Assembly: GCF_024300625.1 (NCBI RefSeq)
Contig: NZ_CP101322.1
Span: 1,997,992 to 2,061,991, forward strand
From: Halovivax gelatinilyticus
GTDB taxonomy: Archaea; Halobacteriota; Halobacteria; Halobacteriales; Natrialbaceae
Direction: 5' to 3'
Length of the DNA stretch: 64,000 nt
This document shows, piece after piece, positions 3,017 through 13,723 of the stretch (position 1 is the first letter of the stretch; every line of letters starts with the position of its first letter). A program made the position numbers and the translations under genes. The notes beneath the pieces are model-generated. The model ran no database searches. It was not told the DNA's origin and saw only the letters and a list, made by a program, of their open reading frames with translations.

Positions 3017-4237
3017 TTAGAGCTGCAGTTCGGACGTCGCGTACTCCTCGGGCGAGACGATCTCGCTGTTCATGTCCTGGATCTGGTTGACGGGCGTCAG
3101 CGCGTTCTCGTTCTCGCCGTCATCGTTGAATTCGATCGGCGGCATCGCGAGGAGGTGATCTTCCACGCGTATGTTCGAGAGCGCCTCGTTCACGTCGTCC
3201 GGATCGGTGCTTCCCGCCTCCTCGATCGCGGCGATCGCGACTTCCGTCGCCGCATACGAGATCCCCCCGACCATGCCGATCTGATCGCCCGTCTCCTCCA
3301 GGTAGTCGTCCGAGATTTCGCCGTAGCGATCGAGCGAGTGGTCGACGGTGGTGATCGTGTTGGTGAGTCCGTTGACCGAATCGCCGAGTTCCTGGAAGAT
3401 GTCGTCGTCGGCGAACGTTGTCGAGGTGCAACAGGCGATGTGGTCCGGCCAGTAGTCCTGTTCTTCCATCGCCTGGATGGCGAGTTGACCGCCCGGGACG
3501 TACGACGTGATGCTGATGGCGTCCGGATCGGCCTGTTCGAGTGCGGTAATCTGCGTATCGAGACTCGCCGGGCCGAACGGGTAGGACTGCTCTTCGACGA
3601 TCTCGACGCCTGCGTCGGGGAGGTGGTCGCGAAGCCCATCGGCGGTCTCCTGTCCGAACGTGTTGTCGACGTACAGCAGGCCGATGGTATCGAACGTACC
3701 GCCGGCGTTTCGGATGGCCTCGGGGTGCAACTCGGCGAAGTCGACCGCCTGACCGTACTGGTGAGGCTGCGGTCGGTAGGCGTACTCGAGCCCGCGACCG
3801 GTCAGAATGTCTCGATCGGAGCCGACCGTCACGACGAACGGAACCTGTTCACGGTCTGCCTGCTGGGTCGCCGACATCGTCGCCGGCGAGGTGACGGCTC
3901 CGAGGACGATGTCCGCGCCGTCGTTTACCAGCTCGGTGGTGATCTCGGCGCCGAGTTCCTGTGCGCCCTGATTGTCGCCTTCGACGACTTCGATCTCCGC
4001 GCCGTCGAGCGATTCGATCCCGCCGTTTTCGTTCTTGTGTTTGGCGGCGAGCTTAACGGCCTCATTCGCGTGATTGCCGTCGCGGGCGACGTCTCCCGTT
4101 AACGGATGATTCGAACCGATGACTACCGCGTCGGAGTCGTCTTCGCCCATGCAGCCGGCGAGTGCAGCTATCGACGCCGCCCCTGCGGTCGCGGCGAGAT
4201 ATGTACGTCTGGTTGTGTGAGGTGTGCGATCACTCAT
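3017..4237 (-). CDS. livK: ABC transporter substrate-binding lipoprotein, LivK/Peripla_BP_6 type
   Basis: 406 residues. Twin-arginine signal (Arg10-Arg11) and lipobox with Cys29 (LAGC), so it is expected to be Tat-exported and lipid-anchored. The mature part is a type I periplasmic-binding fold of the LivK family, starting VVIGSNHPLTGDVARDG, the usual motif of branched-chain amino acid and aromatic/carboxylic acid binding proteins. It is separated from livHMGF (10.16-13.7 kb) by a block of acyl-CoA catabolic genes and transcribed away from them, which suggests it feeds that pathway rather than general amino acid uptake. A TATA-like box lies about 33 nt upstream. The ligand is unknown. Confidence 0.9.
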   Translation of the reverse strand: MSDRTPHTTRRTYLAATAGAASIAALAGCMGEDDSDAVVIGSNHPLTGDVARDGNHANEAVKLAAKHKNENGGIESLDGAEIEVVEGDNQGAQELGAEITTELVNDGADIVLGAVTSPATMSATQQADREQVPFVVTVGSDRDILTGRGLEYAYRPQPHQYGQAVDFAELHPEAIRNAGGTFDTIGLLYVDNTFGQETADGLRDHLPDAGVEIVEEQSYPFGPASLDTQITALEQADPDAISITSYVPGGQLAIQAMEEQDYWPDHIACCTSTTFADDDIFQELGDSVNGLTNTITTVDHSLDRYGEISDDYLEETGDQIGMVGGISYAATEVAIAAIEEAGSTDPDDVNEALSNIRVEDHLLAMPPIEFNDDGENENALTPVNQIQDMNSEIVSPEEYATSELQL

Positions 4238-4415: not shown

Positions 4416-4889
4416 ATGACACGGCGTGAACCCACGGCCGAGCAGTGGTACTTCGAAGAGATCGAGGTCGGAGAGACGTTCGCGATCCCTTCGAAGACGA
4501 TCACGAACACACACTTCGTCACGTTCGCCGGCCTCACCGGCGACTTCCACCCGATCCACCTAGACGAACACTACGCACGCGAAGAAACCCCGTTCGACAG
4601 CCGGGTCGCCCACGGCATGATGATCACGATGTTCACCATCGTCGGTGCCTCTTCGCTCTCGGACCATCTCCACGAGTCGGCGATCGCGTTTCTCAACCAG
4701 TCCTCGGGCTTTCTGAATCCGGTATTCGAAGGTGACACGATCTATCCCGAACTCGAAGTGAGCGAGAAAGAAGACAAGGGTGGAAAGGGGATCGTCACCC
4801 TCGCCTCTCGCGTCTTCAACCAGAACGACGAACAGGTTCTCGAGGGCGAACTCGAGATCCTGGTAAAAAAGCGCAAGGGTGGCGACTGA
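4416..4889 (+). CDS. MaoC family (R)-specific enoyl-CoA hydratase
   Basis: 157 residues, a single hotdog domain. The hydratase motif GDFHPIHLD (residues 42-50) supplies the expected catalytic Asp43 and His48, and AHGMM follows. Predicted to add water to an enoyl-CoA in the cytosol. It opens an operon with a thiolase-like protein (one base away from the chosen start) and a DUF35 protein. In actinobacterial steroid degradation a MaoC hydratase, a DUF35 domain and an Ltp2-type aldolase form one complex; the same three parts occur here in order. Substrate not predictable. Confidence 0.88.
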   Translation: MTRREPTAEQWYFEEIEVGETFAIPSKTITNTHFVTFAGLTGDFHPIHLDEHYAREETPFDSRVAHGMMITMFTIVGASSLSDHLHESAIAFLNQSSGFLNPVFEGDTIYPELEVSEKEDKGGKGIVTLASRVFNQNDEQVLEGELEILVKKRKGGD

Positions 4890-4890
4890 G

Positions 4891-6060
4891 ATGGGCGCTG
4901 ACGCCTACATCGCCGGGGCGTACGAACACCCGACACGCGAGGCGCCGGAGACGTCGACGATGCAACTGCACGCGGCGGTCGCTCGCGGAGCCCTCGACGA
5001 CGCCGGCCTCTCGCTCGTCGACGTTGACGGCTACCTGACGGCGGGCGTCCCGGAGTACACCTTCGCGCTCCAGCCGCTGACGATGGCCGACTACCTCGGA
5101 CTCGACGTCTCGTTCGTCGATTCGACCGACGTCGGTGGCTCGTCCTACCTGAGCCACGTCGGCCACGCGGTCTCGGCGATCCGAGACGGCACGTGCGACG
5201 TCGCGCTGATCACTCTCGCAGGTCGACCGCGCTCGCGGGCGCAAGCCACCGGTTCCGGCGTTCGGGAACTCCGGACGATGCAAGATAGTTTCGAGCGCAT
5301 CTACGGCTCGACGCCCATCTCACAGTACGCGATGACCGCGCGTCGCCACGCTCACGAGTACGGAACGACGCGCGAGCAACTGGCGGCGATCCGCGTCGCT
5401 GCGTCCCGCCACGCCCAGTACAACGACGACGCGATGTACCCCGACCCGGTCACCGTCGAGGACGTCATCGACTCGCCGCCGGTGGCCGAGCCGCTCCACC
5501 TCCTCGACTGTTGTGTCATCTCGGACGGCGGCGGTGCCCTGGTCGTCGTCTCCGAAGAGGTCGCCTCACAGCTAGACCGGGAGGCGGTTCCCGTTCTGGG
5601 CCACGGCGAGGCGATCGGCCACCGCGACGGCGGGCGCGCCGACGTGACGCGGACGGCCGCACGCGAGTCGGGATCGCGGGCGTTCGAGGAGGCCGGACTG
5701 GAGCCGGCCGACGTCGACTACGTCTCGATCTACGACTCGTTCACCATCACCGTCTTGCTCGCACTCGAGGATCTGGGATTCTGCGAGAAGGGTGCCGGCG
5801 GCGAGTTCGTCGAAGGCGGGACGCTCGAAGCGCCCGACGGCGACCTCCCGTTCAACACCGACGGCGGCAGCCTCTGTTCGAACCATCCCGGTAACCGCGG
5901 TGGCATGACGAAGGTCATCGAGGCGGTCCGCCAACTGCGTGGCGAGGCGGCCACGCCGGTGCAAGTCGACGCGGACGTGGCGCTCGCCCACGGCACCGGC
6001 GGCGTCCTGGGGACGAGACACAGCGCGTCGACGCTCGTGCTCGGGGGGACCGAACCGTGA
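4891..6060 (+). CDS. Thiolase-superfamily protein (SCP-x/Ltp-like, probable aldolase or acyltransferase)
   Basis: 389 residues of thiolase fold. Family marks are DVALITLAGRPRS, LDCCVISDGGGALVV, and a C-terminal CSNHPGNRGG and HGTGG. Where a biosynthetic or degradative thiolase has its nucleophilic Cys, this protein reads VDSTDVGGSSYLSHVG, so the N-terminal Cys is missing, as in Ltp-type thiolase homologues that work as retro-aldolases with DUF35 partners. Start chosen at ATG 4891, one base after the MaoC stop; an in-frame GTG at 4879 would overlap MaoC. The stop overlaps the DUF35 start (GTGA). It may cleave a beta-hydroxyacyl-CoA aldolically, or act as an unusual thiolase. Confidence 0.85.
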   Translation: MGADAYIAGAYEHPTREAPETSTMQLHAAVARGALDDAGLSLVDVDGYLTAGVPEYTFALQPLTMADYLGLDVSFVDSTDVGGSSYLSHVGHAVSAIRDGTCDVALITLAGRPRSRAQATGSGVRELRTMQDSFERIYGSTPISQYAMTARRHAHEYGTTREQLAAIRVAASRHAQYNDDAMYPDPVTVEDVIDSPPVAEPLHLLDCCVISDGGGALVVVSEEVASQLDREAVPVLGHGEAIGHRDGGRADVTRTAARESGSRAFEEAGLEPADVDYVSIYDSFTITVLLALEDLGFCEKGAGGEFVEGGTLEAPDGDLPFNTDGGSLCSNHPGNRGGMTKVIEAVRQLRGEAATPVQVDADVALAHGTGGVLGTRHSASTLVLGGTEP

Positions 6061-6473
6061 GCGACGCGTGGGAGCCCCGCCCGGTGCCGGACGTGACGCC
6101 GGAGACTGCCGAATACTGGGCGGCCGCCGCCGACGGTGATCTGCTCGTCGGCACCTGTGAGGCGTGCGAGGCCGTATTTCACTACCCGCGGGCCCACTGC
6201 CCTGATTGCTTCTCTGAAGCTGTATCGACGACCACGGCCGCGGGCACGGCCCGGCTCTACACGTTCGCTTCACCCGAACGCATCGAGGGCTGGCCAGACG
6301 AACATCGACCGCTGATCGTCGCCCAGGTCGAACTCGACGAGGGTCCGCGACTGATCACCAACGTCGTCGATGCCGACCCGTCGGCGCTCTCGATCGGCGA
6401 CCGAGTCGCGGTCCGGTTCGTCCCGACCGACCGTGACGACGTGGCGATCCCGGTGTTCGAGCCGGTCGACTGA
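6057..6473 (+). CDS. Zn-ribbon/OB-fold protein, DUF35 family (thiolase/aldolase partner)
   Basis: 138 residues. An N-terminal rubredoxin-like zinc ribbon has Cys34, Cys37, Cys48 and Cys51 (CEAC...CPDC), followed by an OB-fold with RLYTFASPERI and GDRVAVRFVP. DUF35 proteins bind thiolase-family enzymes and help channel acyl-CoA substrates. The GTG start overlaps the preceding thiolase stop by four bases, strongly suggesting stoichiometric expression with it. Confidence 0.9.
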   Translation: MSDAWEPRPVPDVTPETAEYWAAAADGDLLVGTCEACEAVFHYPRAHCPDCFSEAVSTTTAAGTARLYTFASPERIEGWPDEHRPLIVAQVELDEGPRLITNVVDADPSALSIGDRVAVRFVPTDRDDVAIPVFEPVD

Positions 6474-6598: not shown

Positions 6599-7135
6599 AT
6601 GCCACAAGTCGTAGGTATCGACCACGTCGGTATCGCGGTTACCGATCTGGACGAAGCGGTCGAGACGTTCGAGTCGCTGCTCGGCGACGACGCCGAGGTC
6701 CACCGAATCGATCCGGGCAAAGAGTACGACGACGACGGAAACGTCGTCGAGGAGATTCGATTCGCCTACCTCGATTCCGGTAACGGCGTCATGCTCGAAC
6801 TCATGCAGCCGGGGACGGTCGGCGAAGGTGCGATCGGACGCTACCTCGAACAAAACGGCGAGGGGATCCACCACGTGAGCATGTGGGTCGAACCGAAGAG
6901 CGAGTTCGCCCAGTTCTTCGAGGTGCTCTCGGAACTCGGCTTCGCGACCGTCGGCGACGAACCCTGGCGATCGGATCCGCGCGCAGAGCGCGACAACGTC
7001 TACACCTACCTCCACCCGAAGTCCGCCCACGGTACCCTGATCGAACTCATCTCGCCGTACGAGGTCGAAGACGGCGTCATGCAGACCCGGGAGACGGCCG
7101 AAGACGCCGGGCGCGACTGGCCGATCGATGGCTGA
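6599..7135 (+). CDS. VOC (glyoxalase/methylmalonyl-CoA epimerase-like) protein
   Basis: 178 residues with two VOC half-modules, IDHVGIAVTDLDEA (His9 a likely metal ligand) and GIHHVSMWV, then TLIELISP. This is the layout of methylmalonyl-CoA epimerase and related acyl-CoA-acting VOC metalloenzymes. Length is somewhat greater than the usual epimerase and the middle is acidic. It follows the hydratase-aldolase operon after 125 bp and precedes a thioesterase gene. If the aldolase releases propionyl-CoA, an epimerase would be a logical downstream step, but no mutase is seen here. Confidence 0.75.
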   Translation: MPQVVGIDHVGIAVTDLDEAVETFESLLGDDAEVHRIDPGKEYDDDGNVVEEIRFAYLDSGNGVMLELMQPGTVGEGAIGRYLEQNGEGIHHVSMWVEPKSEFAQFFEVLSELGFATVGDEPWRSDPRAERDNVYTYLHPKSAHGTLIELISPYEVEDGVMQTRETAEDAGRDWPIDG

Positions 7136-7156: not shown

Positions 7157-7561
7157 ATGAGCCTCGAACACGAGTGGACGGTTCGCTTCGGCGACGTCGA
7201 CCTCGCGGGCGTGATCTACTATCCTGGACTCTTCGATCGCTTCGTCCGGACCGTCGAGGACGCCATGGCCGCGGCCGGCTACCCGTTCGCGACGATGCTC
7301 GAAGACGCCGTCGGGATGCCGATCGTCCACGCAGAGGCCGACCTCCATCGGCCGATCCGACTCGGCGAGACGGTGACGATCGCGGTGACGCCGACTGTCG
7401 GCGAGACGTCGGTTCGCTTCGCATTCGAGTGTACCGTCGACGGCGACGTCGTCGCCGAGGGCGAGCAGGTCCAGACACTGATCGACCTCGAGTCGTTCGA
7501 CCCGATCGCGGTCCCCGACGACCTCGCCGTCGCGCTCGAAGCGCTCGGGGCGGACGATTGA
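7157..7561 (+). CDS. Acyl-CoA thioesterase, 4HBT hotdog family (YbgC-like)
   Basis: 134 residues, one hotdog domain beginning WTVRFGDVDLAGVIYYPGLF, the YbgC/4-hydroxybenzoyl-CoA thioesterase signature with the catalytic Asp in the DVDLAG segment. It would hydrolyse an acyl-CoA, recycling CoA from a dead-end or end-product thioester. It lies 21 nt after the VOC gene and is probably cotranscribed with it. Confidence 0.85.
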   Translation: MSLEHEWTVRFGDVDLAGVIYYPGLFDRFVRTVEDAMAAAGYPFATMLEDAVGMPIVHAEADLHRPIRLGETVTIAVTPTVGETSVRFAFECTVDGDVVAEGEQVQTLIDLESFDPIAVPDDLAVALEALGADD

Positions 7562-7687
7562 CATCCCGAGGCGCGTACTGTTGACCGACGCGCGCCGATT
7601 CAACCGAGTGGTTCCAACCGCGAGCCCGGAACCGATCGCCTTCGAGTGGTCCAAAGATTCAACACCGTTCGCCACCCAGTCGCGTCA

Positions 7688-8503
7688 ATGACGGCTTCGA
7701 ACGGTGGAACCGTCCGTTACACTGCCGAGGGACCGATCGCGACCATCGTCTTCGACCGTCCGTCGCGTCGAAACGCGCTCACCCGCGAGATGGTAGAGAC
7801 GTTTCTCGCGTCGATTCGGGCGGCCGAGGAGCGACCGGAGATCAGAGCGATCGTCGTCGCCGGTGCCGATGGCGACTTCTGTGCGGGCGGCGACATCGAC
7901 GAGCTGATTCCAGCGTACGTCGACGACATCGACGACGAGTCGTTCGGGCCGGACGACGAACTGTTCGCCTTCGCCCTTCGGTACGAGTCGATTTCGACGC
8001 CGATCGTCGCGGCGGTCACCGGTGCCTGCATCGGGGCCGGGATGGAACTGCTCCACGCGACCGATATCAGGATCGCCGGCGAGTCGGCCGAATTCGGCCA
8101 CCAGGAGCCGCGGTGGGGGCTGTTTCCCGCCGGCGGTGCCACGGTTCGCCTGCCGCGGCAGGTGCCCTACTGTCGAGCGATGGAGTACCTGCTGACCGGC
8201 GATCGATTCGACGCCGAACACGCCCGCCAGGCCGGTCTGGTCAACGAGGTCGTCCCCTCGGCGGACGTCCGAGACCGGGCCCGCACCGTCGCCGAGTCGA
8301 TCGCTGCGAACAGTCCGACAGCCGTCGCAGCGATCAAGTCGTCCGTCGTGGGCGGTCTCGACCGACGGATGACGGACGCGTTCGCCCTCGAAGCTGAACT
8401 GGCCCGGGAAGCCTGGACGAGCGCCGACGCCGCGGAGGGAATCGCCGCGTTCCGCGAGGGGCGACCACCGTCGTTCGACGATGGCTCGTCCGACGCCGAC
8501 TGA
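7688..8503 (+). CDS. Enoyl-CoA hydratase/isomerase family protein
   Basis: 271 residues of crotonase fold: first oxyanion segment DFCAGGDID (about 63-71), second GACIGAGMELLHATDIRIA with Glu, then HQEPRWGLFPAGGAT placing the second acidic catalytic residue. Both Glu positions expected of a hydratase appear to be filled. ATG at 7688 chosen; an upstream in-frame codon at 7646 would add residues with no family similarity. Part of the acyl-CoA island. Confidence 0.88.
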   Translation: MTASNGGTVRYTAEGPIATIVFDRPSRRNALTREMVETFLASIRAAEERPEIRAIVVAGADGDFCAGGDIDELIPAYVDDIDDESFGPDDELFAFALRYESISTPIVAAVTGACIGAGMELLHATDIRIAGESAEFGHQEPRWGLFPAGGATVRLPRQVPYCRAMEYLLTGDRFDAEHARQAGLVNEVVPSADVRDRARTVAESIAANSPTAVAAIKSSVVGGLDRRMTDAFALEAELAREAWTSADAAEGIAAFREGRPPSFDDGSSDAD

Positions 8504-8596: not shown

Positions 8597-9766
8597 ATGG
8601 GTTTCGAGCTAACGCCAGAACACGAACTGATTCAACAGACCGTCTCGGAGATCGCCGGCCAGTACGACGAGTCCTACTGGCAGGACGTGCGGATGAACGA
8701 GCGATTCGCCGAGGAACTCTACCAGGATCTGGCCGACGGCGGCTGGCTGGGACTGCCGTTTCCGGAGGAACTGGGCGGCGAGGAGATGGGGCTCACCGAG
8801 GTCGTTCTCGTGATGGAGGCGCTCGCCGAAGAGGGTGCCTGGGAACTCTCCGGGGCGCTCATTCTCAGCCTGATCTTCGGGGGAATCGGCCTCGTCGAAC
8901 ACGGGACGGACGAACAGATTTCCCGTTACGTTCCGGACATCATCGACGGCAAGAGCAAGTGGGCGATCGCCGTCACCGAACCAGACGCCGGGTCGAACAC
9001 GGCGAACATCTCGACCGTCGCCGAGCGAGACGGCGACGAGTTCGTCGTCAACGGCCACAAGCAGTTCATCTCCGGACTCGAACTGGCCGACCGGATGCTG
9101 TTACTCGCCCGAACCGCCCCGCCGGGCGAGGGAGACTCCCCGTTCGACGGGATGACGATGTTCATCGTCGATCCCGAAGCCGACGGCGTCGAGTACAGTG
9201 AGATTCCACTCGACATCTACTATCGCGACCGGACGTTCGACGTACACCTAGACGACGTCCGACTCGCCGAAGACCAGGTTCTGGGGGAGGTTGGCGAGGG
9301 GATGTACCAGATGTTCGCGACGCTCAACACCGAGCGGATCACGGCTGCCGCCGAGGCGTGGGGAATGGGCCGCTGGTCGCTCGACCGGGCGGTAGCGCAG
9401 GCGAACGAACGGGTCGTCTGGGACGAACCGATCGGCGCCCATCAGGCCATCCAGCACCCACTGGCGGACGCGCACGCTGATCTCGTCTCCTCGAAACACC
9501 TCACTCGGGAGGCGGCCTGGCGCTACGACAACGACGTGGGCAACGTCGGCGAAATCTCGAACATCGCGAACCTGCAGGCAGGAAAGGCCGCCTGGGCGGC
9601 GTGCGAGGCCGCGATGACGACGTTCGGAGGGATGTCGGTTGCCGCCGAACTCGGCCTCGGCGCTGCCTGGGGAACAGTCCGTCACTACCGGACGGCCCCG
9701 GTTTCCGAAGAGATGATCAGAAACTACATCGCCCAGCACTCGCTGGGACTTCCCCGGTCGTACTGA
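8597..9766 (+). CDS. Acyl-CoA dehydrogenase
   Basis: 389 residues. Conserved segments are AVTEPDAGSNTANI (FAD/substrate loop), GHKQFISGLELAD, and a C-terminal helical domain with AGKAAWAACEAAMTTFGG. The end reads APVSEEMIRNYIAQ rather than the common EGT motif, so the catalytic Glu is probably at another family-specific place. It would introduce a double bond into an acyl-CoA, feeding the MaoC or crotonase hydratase of this island. Electron acceptor would be ETF, not encoded here. Confidence 0.9.
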   Translation: MGFELTPEHELIQQTVSEIAGQYDESYWQDVRMNERFAEELYQDLADGGWLGLPFPEELGGEEMGLTEVVLVMEALAEEGAWELSGALILSLIFGGIGLVEHGTDEQISRYVPDIIDGKSKWAIAVTEPDAGSNTANISTVAERDGDEFVVNGHKQFISGLELADRMLLLARTAPPGEGDSPFDGMTMFIVDPEADGVEYSEIPLDIYYRDRTFDVHLDDVRLAEDQVLGEVGEGMYQMFATLNTERITAAAEAWGMGRWSLDRAVAQANERVVWDEPIGAHQAIQHPLADAHADLVSSKHLTREAAWRYDNDVGNVGEISNIANLQAGKAAWAACEAAMTTFGGMSVAAELGLGAAWGTVRHYRTAPVSEEMIRNYIAQHSLGLPRSY

Positions 9767-10159: not shown

Positions 10160-11140
10160 ATGATCGAACTCGCCGTCGCCGTCGATCCGACGACGTTTAC
10201 AACCGCACCGGCTATGACGCTGTGGGAGCGGACGATCGGCCCGCTGGTAGACCTCGGAAGCGACGTCAGAAGCGGGAACACGGTCCTGTTCACCCTGCTC
10301 GTCCAGGGGATCTTGCTGGGTGGCATCTACGGTCTCGTCGCGCTCGGATTGACGATGATCTTCGGTGTGATGGACGTCATCAACTTCGCCCACGGGGCGT
10401 TTCTCGCGATCGGCATGTACTTTTCGTACGTTGTGTTCACGTCGTTCGGTCTCTCACCGCTGGTTTCGCTTCCGCTCGCGTTCGTCGCGCTCTTCGTACT
10501 CGGCATGGCAATCGAGCGCGCGACGATCGAACCCATCATCGACGCGCCCGCCCAGAGCCAGATCATCATCACCCTCGGGCTCTGGTTCATTATCGAAGCG
10601 CTCATCGAAATCGCGTTCTCGCCGAACCCGCAGTCGATTCACGGCTCCTACGGTTCGTTCTCGATCGCCGGCATCTCGATCGCCGAGGGCCGGTTTTACT
10701 CGCTCGTGGTCGCCGTCATCGCGATGGTCGCAACCTGGGGCTTTCTCTACTACACTGACATGGGCCGGATGATCAGAGGGACGGCCGACAACCGCGTCGG
10801 TGCCCGCTACGTCGGCATCGACGTGCGAAAGATCAACTACACCACGTTCGGGATCGGCGCCGCGCTGGCCGGCGTCGCGGGGGCGGCGATCACGATGGTC
10901 AGACCGTTCGACCCGTACACGGGGGAGATCTACCTCATCAACGCGTTCATCGTCGTCGTCCTCGGCGGCCTCGGCTCGCTTCCGGGGGCGATCGTCGCCG
11001 GTCTCATCATCGGCATGGTCGAGGTCTTCGGCTCGTACTACTACCCGCGCACGATGTACCAGATGCTCATCTTCCTGATCTTCATCGCGACGCTGCTGTT
11101 GAAACCGTCCGGTCTCTTCGGGAGTGATCACCATGAGTAG
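10160..11140 (+). CDS. livH: Branched-chain-type ABC transporter permease LivH
   Basis: 326 residues, polytopic. The first half has GLVALGLTMIFGVMDVINFAHGAF, the hallmark of LivH permeases (split here by description only), and the C-terminal half has VVVLGGLGSLPGAIVAGLI. It forms the membrane channel with LivM. The start at 10160 gives a 30-residue N-terminal extension before the first helix; an internal Met (MTLWERT) is an alternative. The stop overlaps livM, so the four genes livHMGF form an operon. Confidence 0.9.
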   Translation: MIELAVAVDPTTFTTAPAMTLWERTIGPLVDLGSDVRSGNTVLFTLLVQGILLGGIYGLVALGLTMIFGVMDVINFAHGAFLAIGMYFSYVVFTSFGLSPLVSLPLAFVALFVLGMAIERATIEPIIDAPAQSQIIITLGLWFIIEALIEIAFSPNPQSIHGSYGSFSIAGISIAEGRFYSLVVAVIAMVATWGFLYYTDMGRMIRGTADNRVGARYVGIDVRKINYTTFGIGAALAGVAGAAITMVRPFDPYTGEIYLINAFIVVVLGGLGSLPGAIVAGLIIGMVEVFGSYYYPRTMYQMLIFLIFIATLLLKPSGLFGSDHHE

Positions 11141-12209
11141 CCCGCTGGCCACGCTGACGGCACGCTATCACGGCCTGAGCGATGGTCGACGTGGATTCGT
11201 CCGCGGCGCTACGGGGATGGGGCTACTCGCCGCGCTCCCGGTGATAATCTCGATTAGCGTTCTCGGCGTCTCGATCGATCAGTGGATCTCGATGCGCATG
11301 CTGGTGTTGACGGTCATCTTCGCGTTCGCCGCCCAGGCATGGAACGTCATGTCGGGGTACACCGGCCTCTTCTCGTTCGGACACGCCGTCTTCTTCGGGA
11401 CCGGCGCCTACGCGACCCAGTTGCTGTTGAACGACTTCGGGATCAATCCGTGGATCGGGATGATCGTCGGTGCGATCATCGCGATGGGGATCGGCCTCCT
11501 GATCGGGTGGCTCACGTTCCGGTTCGAAGTCGAGGGTCACTACTTCGCGTTGACCACCTTCGCGTTCGCCGAACTCGCCCGCCACACCGTCAACAACTCA
11601 CCAGAGCTGAACGGACCGAACGGCTACTTCCTGCCGCTTCCGAACGAGTACGCGTCCGACTACGGGTTGCTCGCCTTCCAGTTCCGGTCGGACACGGAGT
11701 ACTACTACGTCGCGCTCGCGTTCCTGGCGCTGATGACGCTGCTCGCCTGGCAGATCAAGCGCTCGTGGATCGGCCTGTACATGTTCGCGATCAGAGAAGA
11801 CGAGCAGGCGGCCCGAAGTATCGGGGTGCCGACCTACCGGTACAAGATGCTGGGGATCGCCATCAGCGGCTTCTTCACCGCCTGGGCCGGCGCGTTCTGG
11901 AGCATGTACTTTTCGAGCATTCGTCCCGGAACGGTCTTCGACCTCTTCATCAACGTCGAGGTGCTCCTTCCGGCCGTGATCGGCGGACTCGGGACGGTGG
12001 CCGGCCCGATCGTGGGCTCGTTCCTGATAACGCCGCTCTCGGAGGTGCTTCGTCAGACGATCGGCGTTCCCGGCGTCGATCTGATCATCTACGGGATCTT
12101 GCTCGTCTTGATCCCGATCTACACGCCGCGAGGGATCATCTTCTGGCCGGAGAAGATCCGCGGCGTGATTCGCCGTCGCCGAACCCGGGGAGGTGACACC
12201 GATGAGTAA
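11133..12209 (+). CDS. livM: Branched-chain-type ABC transporter permease LivM
   Basis: 358 residues with about eight to ten membrane segments. LivM marks are NVMSGYTGLFSFGHAVFFG, TLAFAELARHT-like LTTFAFAELARH, and EVLLPAVIGGLGTVAGPIVG. ATG at 11133 overlaps the livH stop by eight bases; an in-frame GTG at 11124 is less likely. Pairs with LivH in the membrane. Confidence 0.9.
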   Translation: MSSPLATLTARYHGLSDGRRGFVRGATGMGLLAALPVIISISVLGVSIDQWISMRMLVLTVIFAFAAQAWNVMSGYTGLFSFGHAVFFGTGAYATQLLLNDFGINPWIGMIVGAIIAMGIGLLIGWLTFRFEVEGHYFALTTFAFAELARHTVNNSPELNGPNGYFLPLPNEYASDYGLLAFQFRSDTEYYYVALAFLALMTLLAWQIKRSWIGLYMFAIREDEQAARSIGVPTYRYKMLGIAISGFFTAWAGAFWSMYFSSIRPGTVFDLFINVEVLLPAVIGGLGTVAGPIVGSFLITPLSEVLRQTIGVPGVDLIIYGILLVLIPIYTPRGIIFWPEKIRGVIRRRRTRGGDTDE

Positions 12210-12975
12210 CGGAACAACCGACACGAGAGCCGTATCGAGCGAGGAGACGACCGGCGAGACCATCCTTCGAACGGAGGGGCTTACGAAGCACTTCGGCGGG
12301 CTAACGGCGCTCTCGGACGTCGACGTTCACATCGACGCCGGCGAAATCGTCGGCTTGATCGGACCGAACGGCGCCGGAAAGACGACGCTCTTTCACTGTA
12401 TCAGCGGCGTTCATACGCCCTCCGAGGGACGCGTCTGGCTCCACGGTGAGGAGATCACGACCGCTCCGTCCGAACGCATCGCGAACGCCGGACTGACCCG
12501 GACCTTCCAGCACACACGTCCGATCGAGGAACTGACTGTACTCGAGAACGTGATGATCGGCGCGCACACGAGCGAAAAGCGCCGGTCGAAAGCGAGAGAG
12601 ACAGCGCGTTCGTGGCTCGAATTCGTCGATCTGGCCGACCACGCGGACGAATCGGCCGGCGATCTCACCGTCGGTAGCCAGAAGATCATGGAACTGGCTC
12701 GCGCCCTGGCGACCGAACCCGAACTGATCCTCGTCGACGAGATTATGGCCGGATTGACGCCGAGTGAGAAGAACGACATCCTCGACATCTTCGAGCGGAT
12801 TCGGGCGAACGGGACGAGTCTCGTCGTGATCGAACACGACCTCGCAGCGATGTTCCGGATCAGCGACCGTGTCATCGTTCTCGATCAGGGAGGCGTCCTC
12901 TCGACGGGAACGCCCGAGGAGATTCAGACGGATCAGGCGGTTATCGACAGTTACATCGGTGAGTACGATGCGTGA
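12202..12975 (+). CDS. livG: Branched-chain-type ABC transporter ATPase LivG
   Basis: 257 residues. Walker A GPNGAGKTT, the Q-loop in TRTFQHTRP, signature region LTVGSQKIMELARAL, Walker B ELILVDEIMAG, and switch His in VIEHDL. The signature reads VGSQK rather than the common LSGGQ, and the Walker B Asp-Glu is present. ATG at 12202 overlaps the livM stop. Cytosolic, energises LivH/LivM together with LivF. Confidence 0.92.
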   Translation: MSNGTTDTRAVSSEETTGETILRTEGLTKHFGGLTALSDVDVHIDAGEIVGLIGPNGAGKTTLFHCISGVHTPSEGRVWLHGEEITTAPSERIANAGLTRTFQHTRPIEELTVLENVMIGAHTSEKRRSKARETARSWLEFVDLADHADESAGDLTVGSQKIMELARALATEPELILVDEIMAGLTPSEKNDILDIFERIRANGTSLVVIEHDLAAMFRISDRVIVLDQGGVLSTGTPEEIQTDQAVIDSYIGEYDA

Positions 12976-13723
12976 ACAATCCCAGACCGACGTGGAGAGT
13001 CGCCCCCCAGACCAGTCGCTGCTTTCGATGGAGAACGTCGTCTCCGGCTACGGTGACGTAATGATCCTAGACGAGGTGTCGCTGCGAATCGACGCCGGCG
13101 AGATCGTCGCGCTGATCGGCTCGAACGGCGTCGGTAAGTCGACCACGACCAAGACGATCGGCGGATTCATCCCGACCCGCTCCGGCGAGATCCACTTCGA
13201 CGGTGAGCGCATCGACGGGCTCGACCCGTCGGAGATCGTCGAGCGCGGGATCGTCCAGGTGCCAGAGCGCCGTGAACTGTTCACCGGTATGAGCGTCGAG
13301 GAGAACCTGTTACTCGGCGGTCTCTCTTCGGAGGCGAAAGAAAAACGCGAGGAGACGCTCGAACGCGTCTACGAGATCTTCCCGAAACTCGCAAAGCGGA
13401 CCGACCAGCGAGCGGGCACGATGAGTGGCGGCGAACAGCAGATGCTCGCACTCGCCCGGGCGTTCATGGCACACCCGCGCCTGGTGATCCTCGACGAACC
13501 ATCGATGGGGCTGGCCCCGAAGATCATCGAGGACGTCTTCGACGCCATCAGACAGTTCCACGACGAGGGGATTACCGTCTTCATCATCGAGCAGAACATC
13601 GCTCAGACGTTAGAACTCGCAGAACGCGGCTACGTTATGGAGAACGGCCGCATCGTGATGGAGGGATCCGGCGACGAACTGCTTGAGAACGACGAGGTCG
13701 TCGAGCGCTACCTCGGCATGTGA
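12968..13723 (+). CDS. livF: Branched-chain-type ABC transporter ATPase LivF
   Basis: 251 residues from ATG 12968, which overlaps the livG stop. Walker A GSNGVGKST, FTGMSVEENLLLGG, signature MSGGEQQMLALARAF, Walker B LVILDEPSMGLAP, and switch EQNIAQTLELA are typical of LivF. The frame is open upstream inside livG, but those extra residues are Arg/Ser-rich overlap sequence and not part of the family. Last gene of the livHMGF operon. Confidence 0.92.
   Translation: MREQSQTDVESRPPDQSLLSMENVVSGYGDVMILDEVSLRIDAGEIVALIGSNGVGKSTTTKTIGGFIPTRSGEIHFDGERIDGLDPSEIVERGIVQVPERRELFTGMSVEENLLLGGLSSEAKEKREETLERVYEIFPKLAKRTDQRAGTMSGGEQQMLALARAFMAHPRLVILDEPSMGLAPKIIEDVFDAIRQFHDEGITVFIIEQNIAQTLELAERGYVMENGRIVMEGSGDELLENDEVVERYLGM

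Follow-up and report, generated by a model that had tools for sequence, protein, structure and literature searches.

The gene encoding a MaoC hydratase, the gene encoding a thiolase-fold protein that lacks the nucleophilic cysteine and the gene encoding a DUF35 protein lie side by side at positions 4416-6473 of the window, the 64,000-nucleotide stretch of the Halovivax gelatinilyticus genome analysed here. Our verdict is that this triad is a real, uncharacterised form of the DUF35-paired, Cys-less thiolase-fold lyases and not a steroid metabolon. We give an even chance to the proposal that it acts as a hydratase together with a DUF35-dependent retro-aldol lyase for 3-hydroxyacyl-CoAs. Its interest lies in the enzymology. 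The features of the triad and of its surroundings are as follows.

3017..4237, minus strand: LivK-type substrate-binding lipoprotein, divergent from the triad operon (PF13458, E 3e-47)
4416..4889, plus strand: MaoC (R)-type enoyl-CoA hydratase, single domain (PF01575, E 2e-18)
4891..6060, plus strand: thiolase-fold protein of 389 aa, NF006010/PRK08142 family (PF22691 Thiolase_C_1, E 1e-50)
5128..5142, plus strand: DVGGS around the lost nucleophile (G82-G83, with G83 at the nucleophile site; from alignments)
5731..5742, plus strand: YDSF motif, Y281-D-S283-F284, invariant in 87/87 relatives
5875..5904, plus strand: C329-S-N-H332-P-G-N-R-G-G loop, its His invariant in 87/87 relatives
6057..6473, plus strand: DUF35 protein of 138 aa (PF12172 zinc ribbon and PF01796 OB domain, both about 1e-13)
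6599..7135, plus strand: methylmalonyl-CoA-epimerase-like VOC protein (TIGR03081, 64.9 bits, below the cutoff of 114.95)
7157..7561, plus strand: 4HBT-family acyl-CoA thioesterase (PF13279)
7646..8503, plus strand: crotonase-family enoyl-CoA hydratase/isomerase (PF00378, E 8e-58)
8597..9766, plus strand: acyl-CoA dehydrogenase (PF00441/02771/02770)
10160..13723, plus strand: LivH, LivM, LivG and LivF importer genes (LivH PF02653; LivG PF00005/PF12399; LivM and LivF assigned from gene order and sequence)

Pfam domains and gene spacing bear out the triad of the original prediction as real, adjacent genes. The ATG of the thiolase gene lies 1 nt past the MaoC stop (an alternative start is GTG 4879) and the DUF35 gene overlaps the thiolase gene by 4 nt, so the three genes are very likely co-translated. 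The MaoC protein keeps its Asp/His dyad in the alignment (D43/H48 within GDFHPIH) and aligns with the PhaJ-type hydratases 5cpg and 1iq6. The DUF35 protein, which has a CxxC...CxxC zinc ribbon followed by an OB fold and no fused MaoC, finds its best PDB matches in ChsH2-DUF35 (6ok1_B) and Shy-DUF35 (9myr_B), and it is predicted to be the obligate partner of the thiolase-fold protein.

A structure-anchored alignment shows Gly in the nucleophile column of the window protein; the 87 relatives with 58% identity or more all have Gly there as well, and the acetoacetyl-CoA-type thiolases of the same genome have Cys. The loss of the nucleophile, read earlier from the VGGSS region, is therefore confirmed, and the recovery of a Cys at this position, named beforehand as refuting, was not observed. 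Five of the 87 close relatives have GGCS instead of GGSS, which places a Cys one residue past the lost nucleophile. C329, present in 85 of the 87, was considered as an alternative nucleophile and rejected because the position of the loop Cys shifts between sub-clades: the sister sub-clade carries Ser at this position and its own Cys at C331, and the structure 4u4e has neither.

The YDSF motif is the equivalent of the catalytic YDHF of Ltp2 (Y294) and YDCY of Sal (Y302/C304). Both tyrosines are essential and take the proton from the 3-hydroxyl, the acid in Ltp2 is Tyr344, and Cys304 of Sal is also essential, the C304S variant being inactive (PMC12329534). The Sal-type YDC(Y/F) is absent from the window family, all 87 relatives having YDSF. 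As the third residue of the motif is Ser and C304S is inactive in Sal, the acid of the window family must lie elsewhere. Judged from its residues, the family would thus combine the base of the aldolases and the loss of the nucleophile with another acid, for which His332, at the position of Ltp2 Tyr344 and Sal Gln352, is a candidate. A further histidine, H367 (HGTGG), is also retained.

Signatures were compared at the nucleophile, the first and third YDxx, the HPG and the HGTGG positions. The window family reads G/Y/S/H/H, with Ala at the third place in one divergent member (L034), the Ltp2 clade G/Y/H or C/Y/T, the Sal clade G/Y/C/Q/T or S, and the Cys-thiolases C/H/C or A/H/H or Q. The window family therefore shares the changes from Cys to Gly and from HDxF to YDxF with the two clades of proven aldolases, and the Cys-thiolases have neither. 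Unlike Sal and Ltp2, however, the window family has Ser in the motif and keeps the two thiolase histidines (H332 and H367). The same genome encodes a second Cys-less thiolase-like protein (SASGG, HDMF; L147:8766-10327, about 3.518 Mb), whose DUF35-type partner has the OB domain only, without the zinc-ribbon cysteines. This protein groups in the Cys-thiolase clade with the signature S/H/M/H/C.

The thiolase-fold protein scored 563.6 bits against NF006010 (curated cutoff 462) and is thus a member of this family, which is annotated only as 'thiolase domain-containing protein'. Its best PDB match is 4u4e, a putative thiolase of Sphaerobacter thermophilus, followed by Sal (9myr) and Ltp2 (6ok1). 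The fold of its AlphaFold model is sound (mean pLDDT 80, pTM 0.86), with values below 50 at residues 199-206 and 325-334, the loops of the active site, and Foldseek with this model placed 4u4e first and Sal second, with TbSLP also among the fold neighbours. The maximum-likelihood tree, rebuilt without the long-branch rows of a first tree, united the window family and 4u4e in one clade (100/99), apart from Sal (100/100), Ltp2 with the ibuprofen protein IpfD (100/99) and the Cys-thiolases (100/100). The window protein is therefore neither an acetoacetyl-CoA thiolase nor an Ltp2, and the grouping with archaeal acetoacetyl-CoA thiolases that was to count against the prediction was not seen. Which of the three other clades is nearest is not separated (AU p 0.14 to 0.45), and the tree by itself does not prove that the window protein is an aldolase. 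Our literature search found no reported activity for the NF006010/PRK08142 family or for 4u4e, and nothing useful on haloarchaeal DUF35-thiolase aldolases or haloarchaeal steroid catabolism. The window protein belongs to a large, separate and functionally uncharacterised branch shared with many bacteria.

Bacterial contigs with a member of the family number in the hundreds, and about 6% of the sampled haloarchaeal genomes have one. Matches were found in 26 of 243 haloarchaeal genomes (E 1e-60); 14 of the 243 carry the close form, namely this genome and others at 64-76% identity, and the remaining matches are of a form with 38-50% identity. Bacterial relatives at 59-66% identity came from at least 580 confirmed candidate stretches, the best 80 of which were analysed, and 575 plasmid records had matches of any strength. 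The neighbourhoods of relatives were compared in 98 loci, which are best matches, rich in Acetobacteraceae and non-independent. DUF35 pairing is near-universal, the gene lying at most five genes away in 94 of these loci; within the same distance SDR genes were found in 35, MaoC in 26, ECH in 25, ACAD in 25 and AMP-ligase in 19. MaoC stands directly upstream of the thiolase in three loci only, namely the window, L126 and a Pseudonocardia plasmid. The conserved module is thus thiolase-DUF35, to which MaoC is a facultative addition, so that the three genes do not form a fixed unit. The gene order closest to the window is that of the Pseudonocardia plasmid pBCI1-2 (SDR-MaoC-thiolase-DUF35-ACAD-ACAD-ECH-ligase), and a Variovorax locus reads thiolase-DUF35-MaoC-SDR-ACAD-ACAD. 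Five Natrialbaceae loci (L127-L131) hold a second YDSF thiolase-DUF35 pair, 46-50% identical, in which the HPG loop has a Cys directly before the His; a MaoC-like gene divergently adjoins the pair in 5/5.

The Liv importer ascribed to the triad is present, as a binding protein on the minus strand and LivHMGF on the plus strand. A haloarchaeal version with its own importer, which the original prediction expected to be new, is not unique, since Liv genes also lie near the pair on two Halomarina plasmids and in the haloarchaeal loci L008 and L122. The window MaoC and VOC proteins have no close homologue among the 243 haloarchaeal genomes and the plasmid matches are distant, so that the exact operon looks locally assembled. 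A propionyl-CoA route was also sought: methylmalonyl-CoA mutase and a true epimerase are encoded at 166-170 kb (the epimerase at 166 kb), so the host could use propionyl-CoA, which is suggestive only. The VOC protein of the window is additional to this epimerase and hints, again no more than suggestively, at a 2-methyl-branched substrate and the release of propionyl-CoA.

The roughly 17 kb that adjoin the window on its left (in L145, 20 kb on that side) hold a wider acyl-CoA island with two genes each of the MaoC, ACAD, CaiB-like, AMP-ligase and MmgE/PrpD-like kinds and one amidase, which is possibly the rest of the triad's pathway. The window itself has two other groups of genes. Positions 34055-55900 contain an unusual density of HyuB paralogues, with five hydantoinase B/oxoprolinase genes (36193, 38479, 46668, 48901 and 52059), at least one hydantoinase A and an ABC-type transporter. 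At 1-2313 a gene for RdfA (rod-determining factor A) adjoins an SMC/Rad50-like ATPase gene, and a similar-looking pair occurs elsewhere in the genome (L146:4114-6770), this second copy being judged from sequence alone.

In the proposed pathway the Liv transporter next to the triad would take up an acid, a CoA ligase or transferase with its gene elsewhere would activate it, and the acyl-CoA dehydrogenase of the operon would oxidise the resulting acyl-CoA. The MaoC protein would then hydrate the 2-enoyl-CoA to the 3-hydroxyacyl-CoA, and a complex of the thiolase-fold and DUF35 proteins, which we infer, would cleave the Calpha-Cbeta bond by retro-aldol chemistry, giving an aldehyde or ketone together with acetyl-CoA, or with propionyl-CoA in the case of a 2-methyl-branched substrate. 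Tyr281 is the likely base, taking the 3-hydroxyl proton as in the two known aldolases, His332 the most likely acid, and DUF35 may complete the substrate cleft. Three points favour retro-aldol cleavage: the signature of Gly and Tyr, the pairing with DUF35, and an operon in which neither Pfam domains nor gene content revealed a 3-hydroxyacyl-CoA dehydrogenase, as expected if cleavage skips the oxidation to the 3-oxo form. Moreover, the nearest characterised relatives in sequence and fold, behind the uncharacterised 4u4e, are the Sal-DUF35 and Ltp2-DUF35 aldolases. The motif Ser, the kept H332 and H367, the frequent dehydrogenase neighbours, the unsettled phylogeny and the rarity of an upstream MaoC count against it.

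The main rival, because relatives often adjoin 3-hydroxyacyl-CoA dehydrogenases, is a retro-Claisen reaction, which we consider unlikely but a serious contender. A dehydrogenase encoded elsewhere (MFE2-type SDR or HAD) would oxidise the 3-hydroxyacyl-CoA, and the 3-oxoacyl-CoA would then be cleaved without a Cys, by hydrolysis or direct CoA attack through the retained histidines. Genes for such dehydrogenases hold some of the closest positions to the relatives: by a strict score, 13 or more of 106 loci have an MFE2-type SDR, always at -1, +2 or +3, and a HAD-type gene adjoins the thiolase in several Natrialbaceae. H332 and H367 also match the histidines of the Cys-thiolases, and CaiB-family genes recur near relatives; some CaiB-family proteins are alpha-methylacyl-CoA racemases, and the whole resembles the peroxisomal MFE2/SCPx logic. 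Nevertheless the Cys is missing throughout the relatives, the sub-clades keep no alternative one, the His to Tyr change in YDxF is the signature of aldolases and the window operon is without a dehydrogenase.

Thiolase folds are reversible, and an enzyme of the biosynthetic direction, performing an aldol or Claisen condensation or a malonyl-CoA decarboxylation as occurs weakly in its fold neighbour TbSLP, was therefore weighed as well. TbSLP decarboxylates malonyl-CoA slowly, and in Sal this activity is absent (PMC12329534). The catabolic neighbours (importer, acyl-CoA dehydrogenase, hydratases and ligases) also speak against this direction, which appears improbable.

The steroid side-chain system, to which the original prediction compared the triad, has the identical parts list (MaoC, DUF35 and Cys-less thiolase fold). 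True membership is nonetheless very improbable: the window protein falls outside the Ltp2 and Sal clades, the DUF35 protein has no MaoC fusion, only one MaoC is present, and the genome (about 95.5% complete) has no match to KshA_C (PF19298) and only three Rieske domains. The steroid side-chain reading was rejected on clade, parts and the absent KshA, and a steroid role is unlikely. The idea of a hydratase-retroaldolase metabolon stands as regards the three parts, but MaoC is no fixed partner and the retro-aldol step is a proposal. The archaeal AACT/HMGS/DUF35 (mevalonate) complex follows the same principle of thiolase-DUF35 pairing and can be dismissed, as the window protein is Cys-less and groups elsewhere in the tree, and the genome has a separate Cys-bearing thiolase by an HMG-CoA-synthase-like/DUF35 gene (L146).

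Returning to the lyase reading, the broad kind is recognised by traits that are all present here: no nucleophile Cys, the YDxx Tyr and a DUF35 gene. We put somewhat less than an even bet on the YDSF clade being a third kind of C-C lyase built on the thiolase fold, with its own Tyr/Ser/His site unlike that of Ltp2 or Sal, acting on non-steroid acyl-CoAs, occurring in Proteobacteria, Actinobacteria, Acidobacteria and haloarchaea, and misannotated at present. If confirmed, many genes now labelled 'thiolase' or 'acetyl-CoA acetyltransferase' would in fact encode lyases releasing aldehydes or ketones, and acid-catabolism pathway predictions would change for many soil bacteria and haloarchaea. The site, with the Gly/Tyr of aldolases and the His/His of thiolases, is moreover a natural test of the change from thiolase to aldolase, a question arising from the Sal work.

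Among the known systems, the Shy-Sal bile-acid hydratase/aldolase of Comamonas (9myr; PMC12329534, PMC11321319) shares with the triad a nucleophile-less thiolase fold with Gly and the catalytic YDxx Tyr, a DUF35 partner and a catalytically competent single MaoC. Shy, however, is a MaoC-DUF35 fusion whereas the window DUF35 is separate, the third motif residue is Cys in Sal and Ser here, Sal has Gln352 at the place of His332, and the clades are separate. ChsH1-ChsH2-Ltp2 (6ok1) and the ibuprofen proteins IpfD/IpfE likewise share the Cys-less thiolase fold, YDxF and the DUF35 partner. Tyr294 of Ltp2 is matched by Tyr281, but His332 and Ser stand in place of its acid Tyr344 and its His296; the MaoC fused to DUF35 in ChsH2 is inert, whereas the triad has a stand-alone DUF35 and one MaoC gene, with no second MaoC corresponding to ChsH1. 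The likeness to this system that was predicted earlier therefore stands for the parts, the closest characterised structures and the Gly/Tyr signature, and fails for the clade and for the residues which Ser and His replace. The benzoylsuccinyl-CoA thiolase BbsAB and the archaeal AACT-HMGS-DUF35 complex have a thiolase fold with a DUF35 partner and the HPG histidine in common with the window protein, but their motif is HDAF/HDCF, with His at the place of its Tyr, and in the AACT type the nucleophile Cys is present where it has Gly. The nearest solved structure is 4u4e, which shares the YDSF and HPG active-site set.
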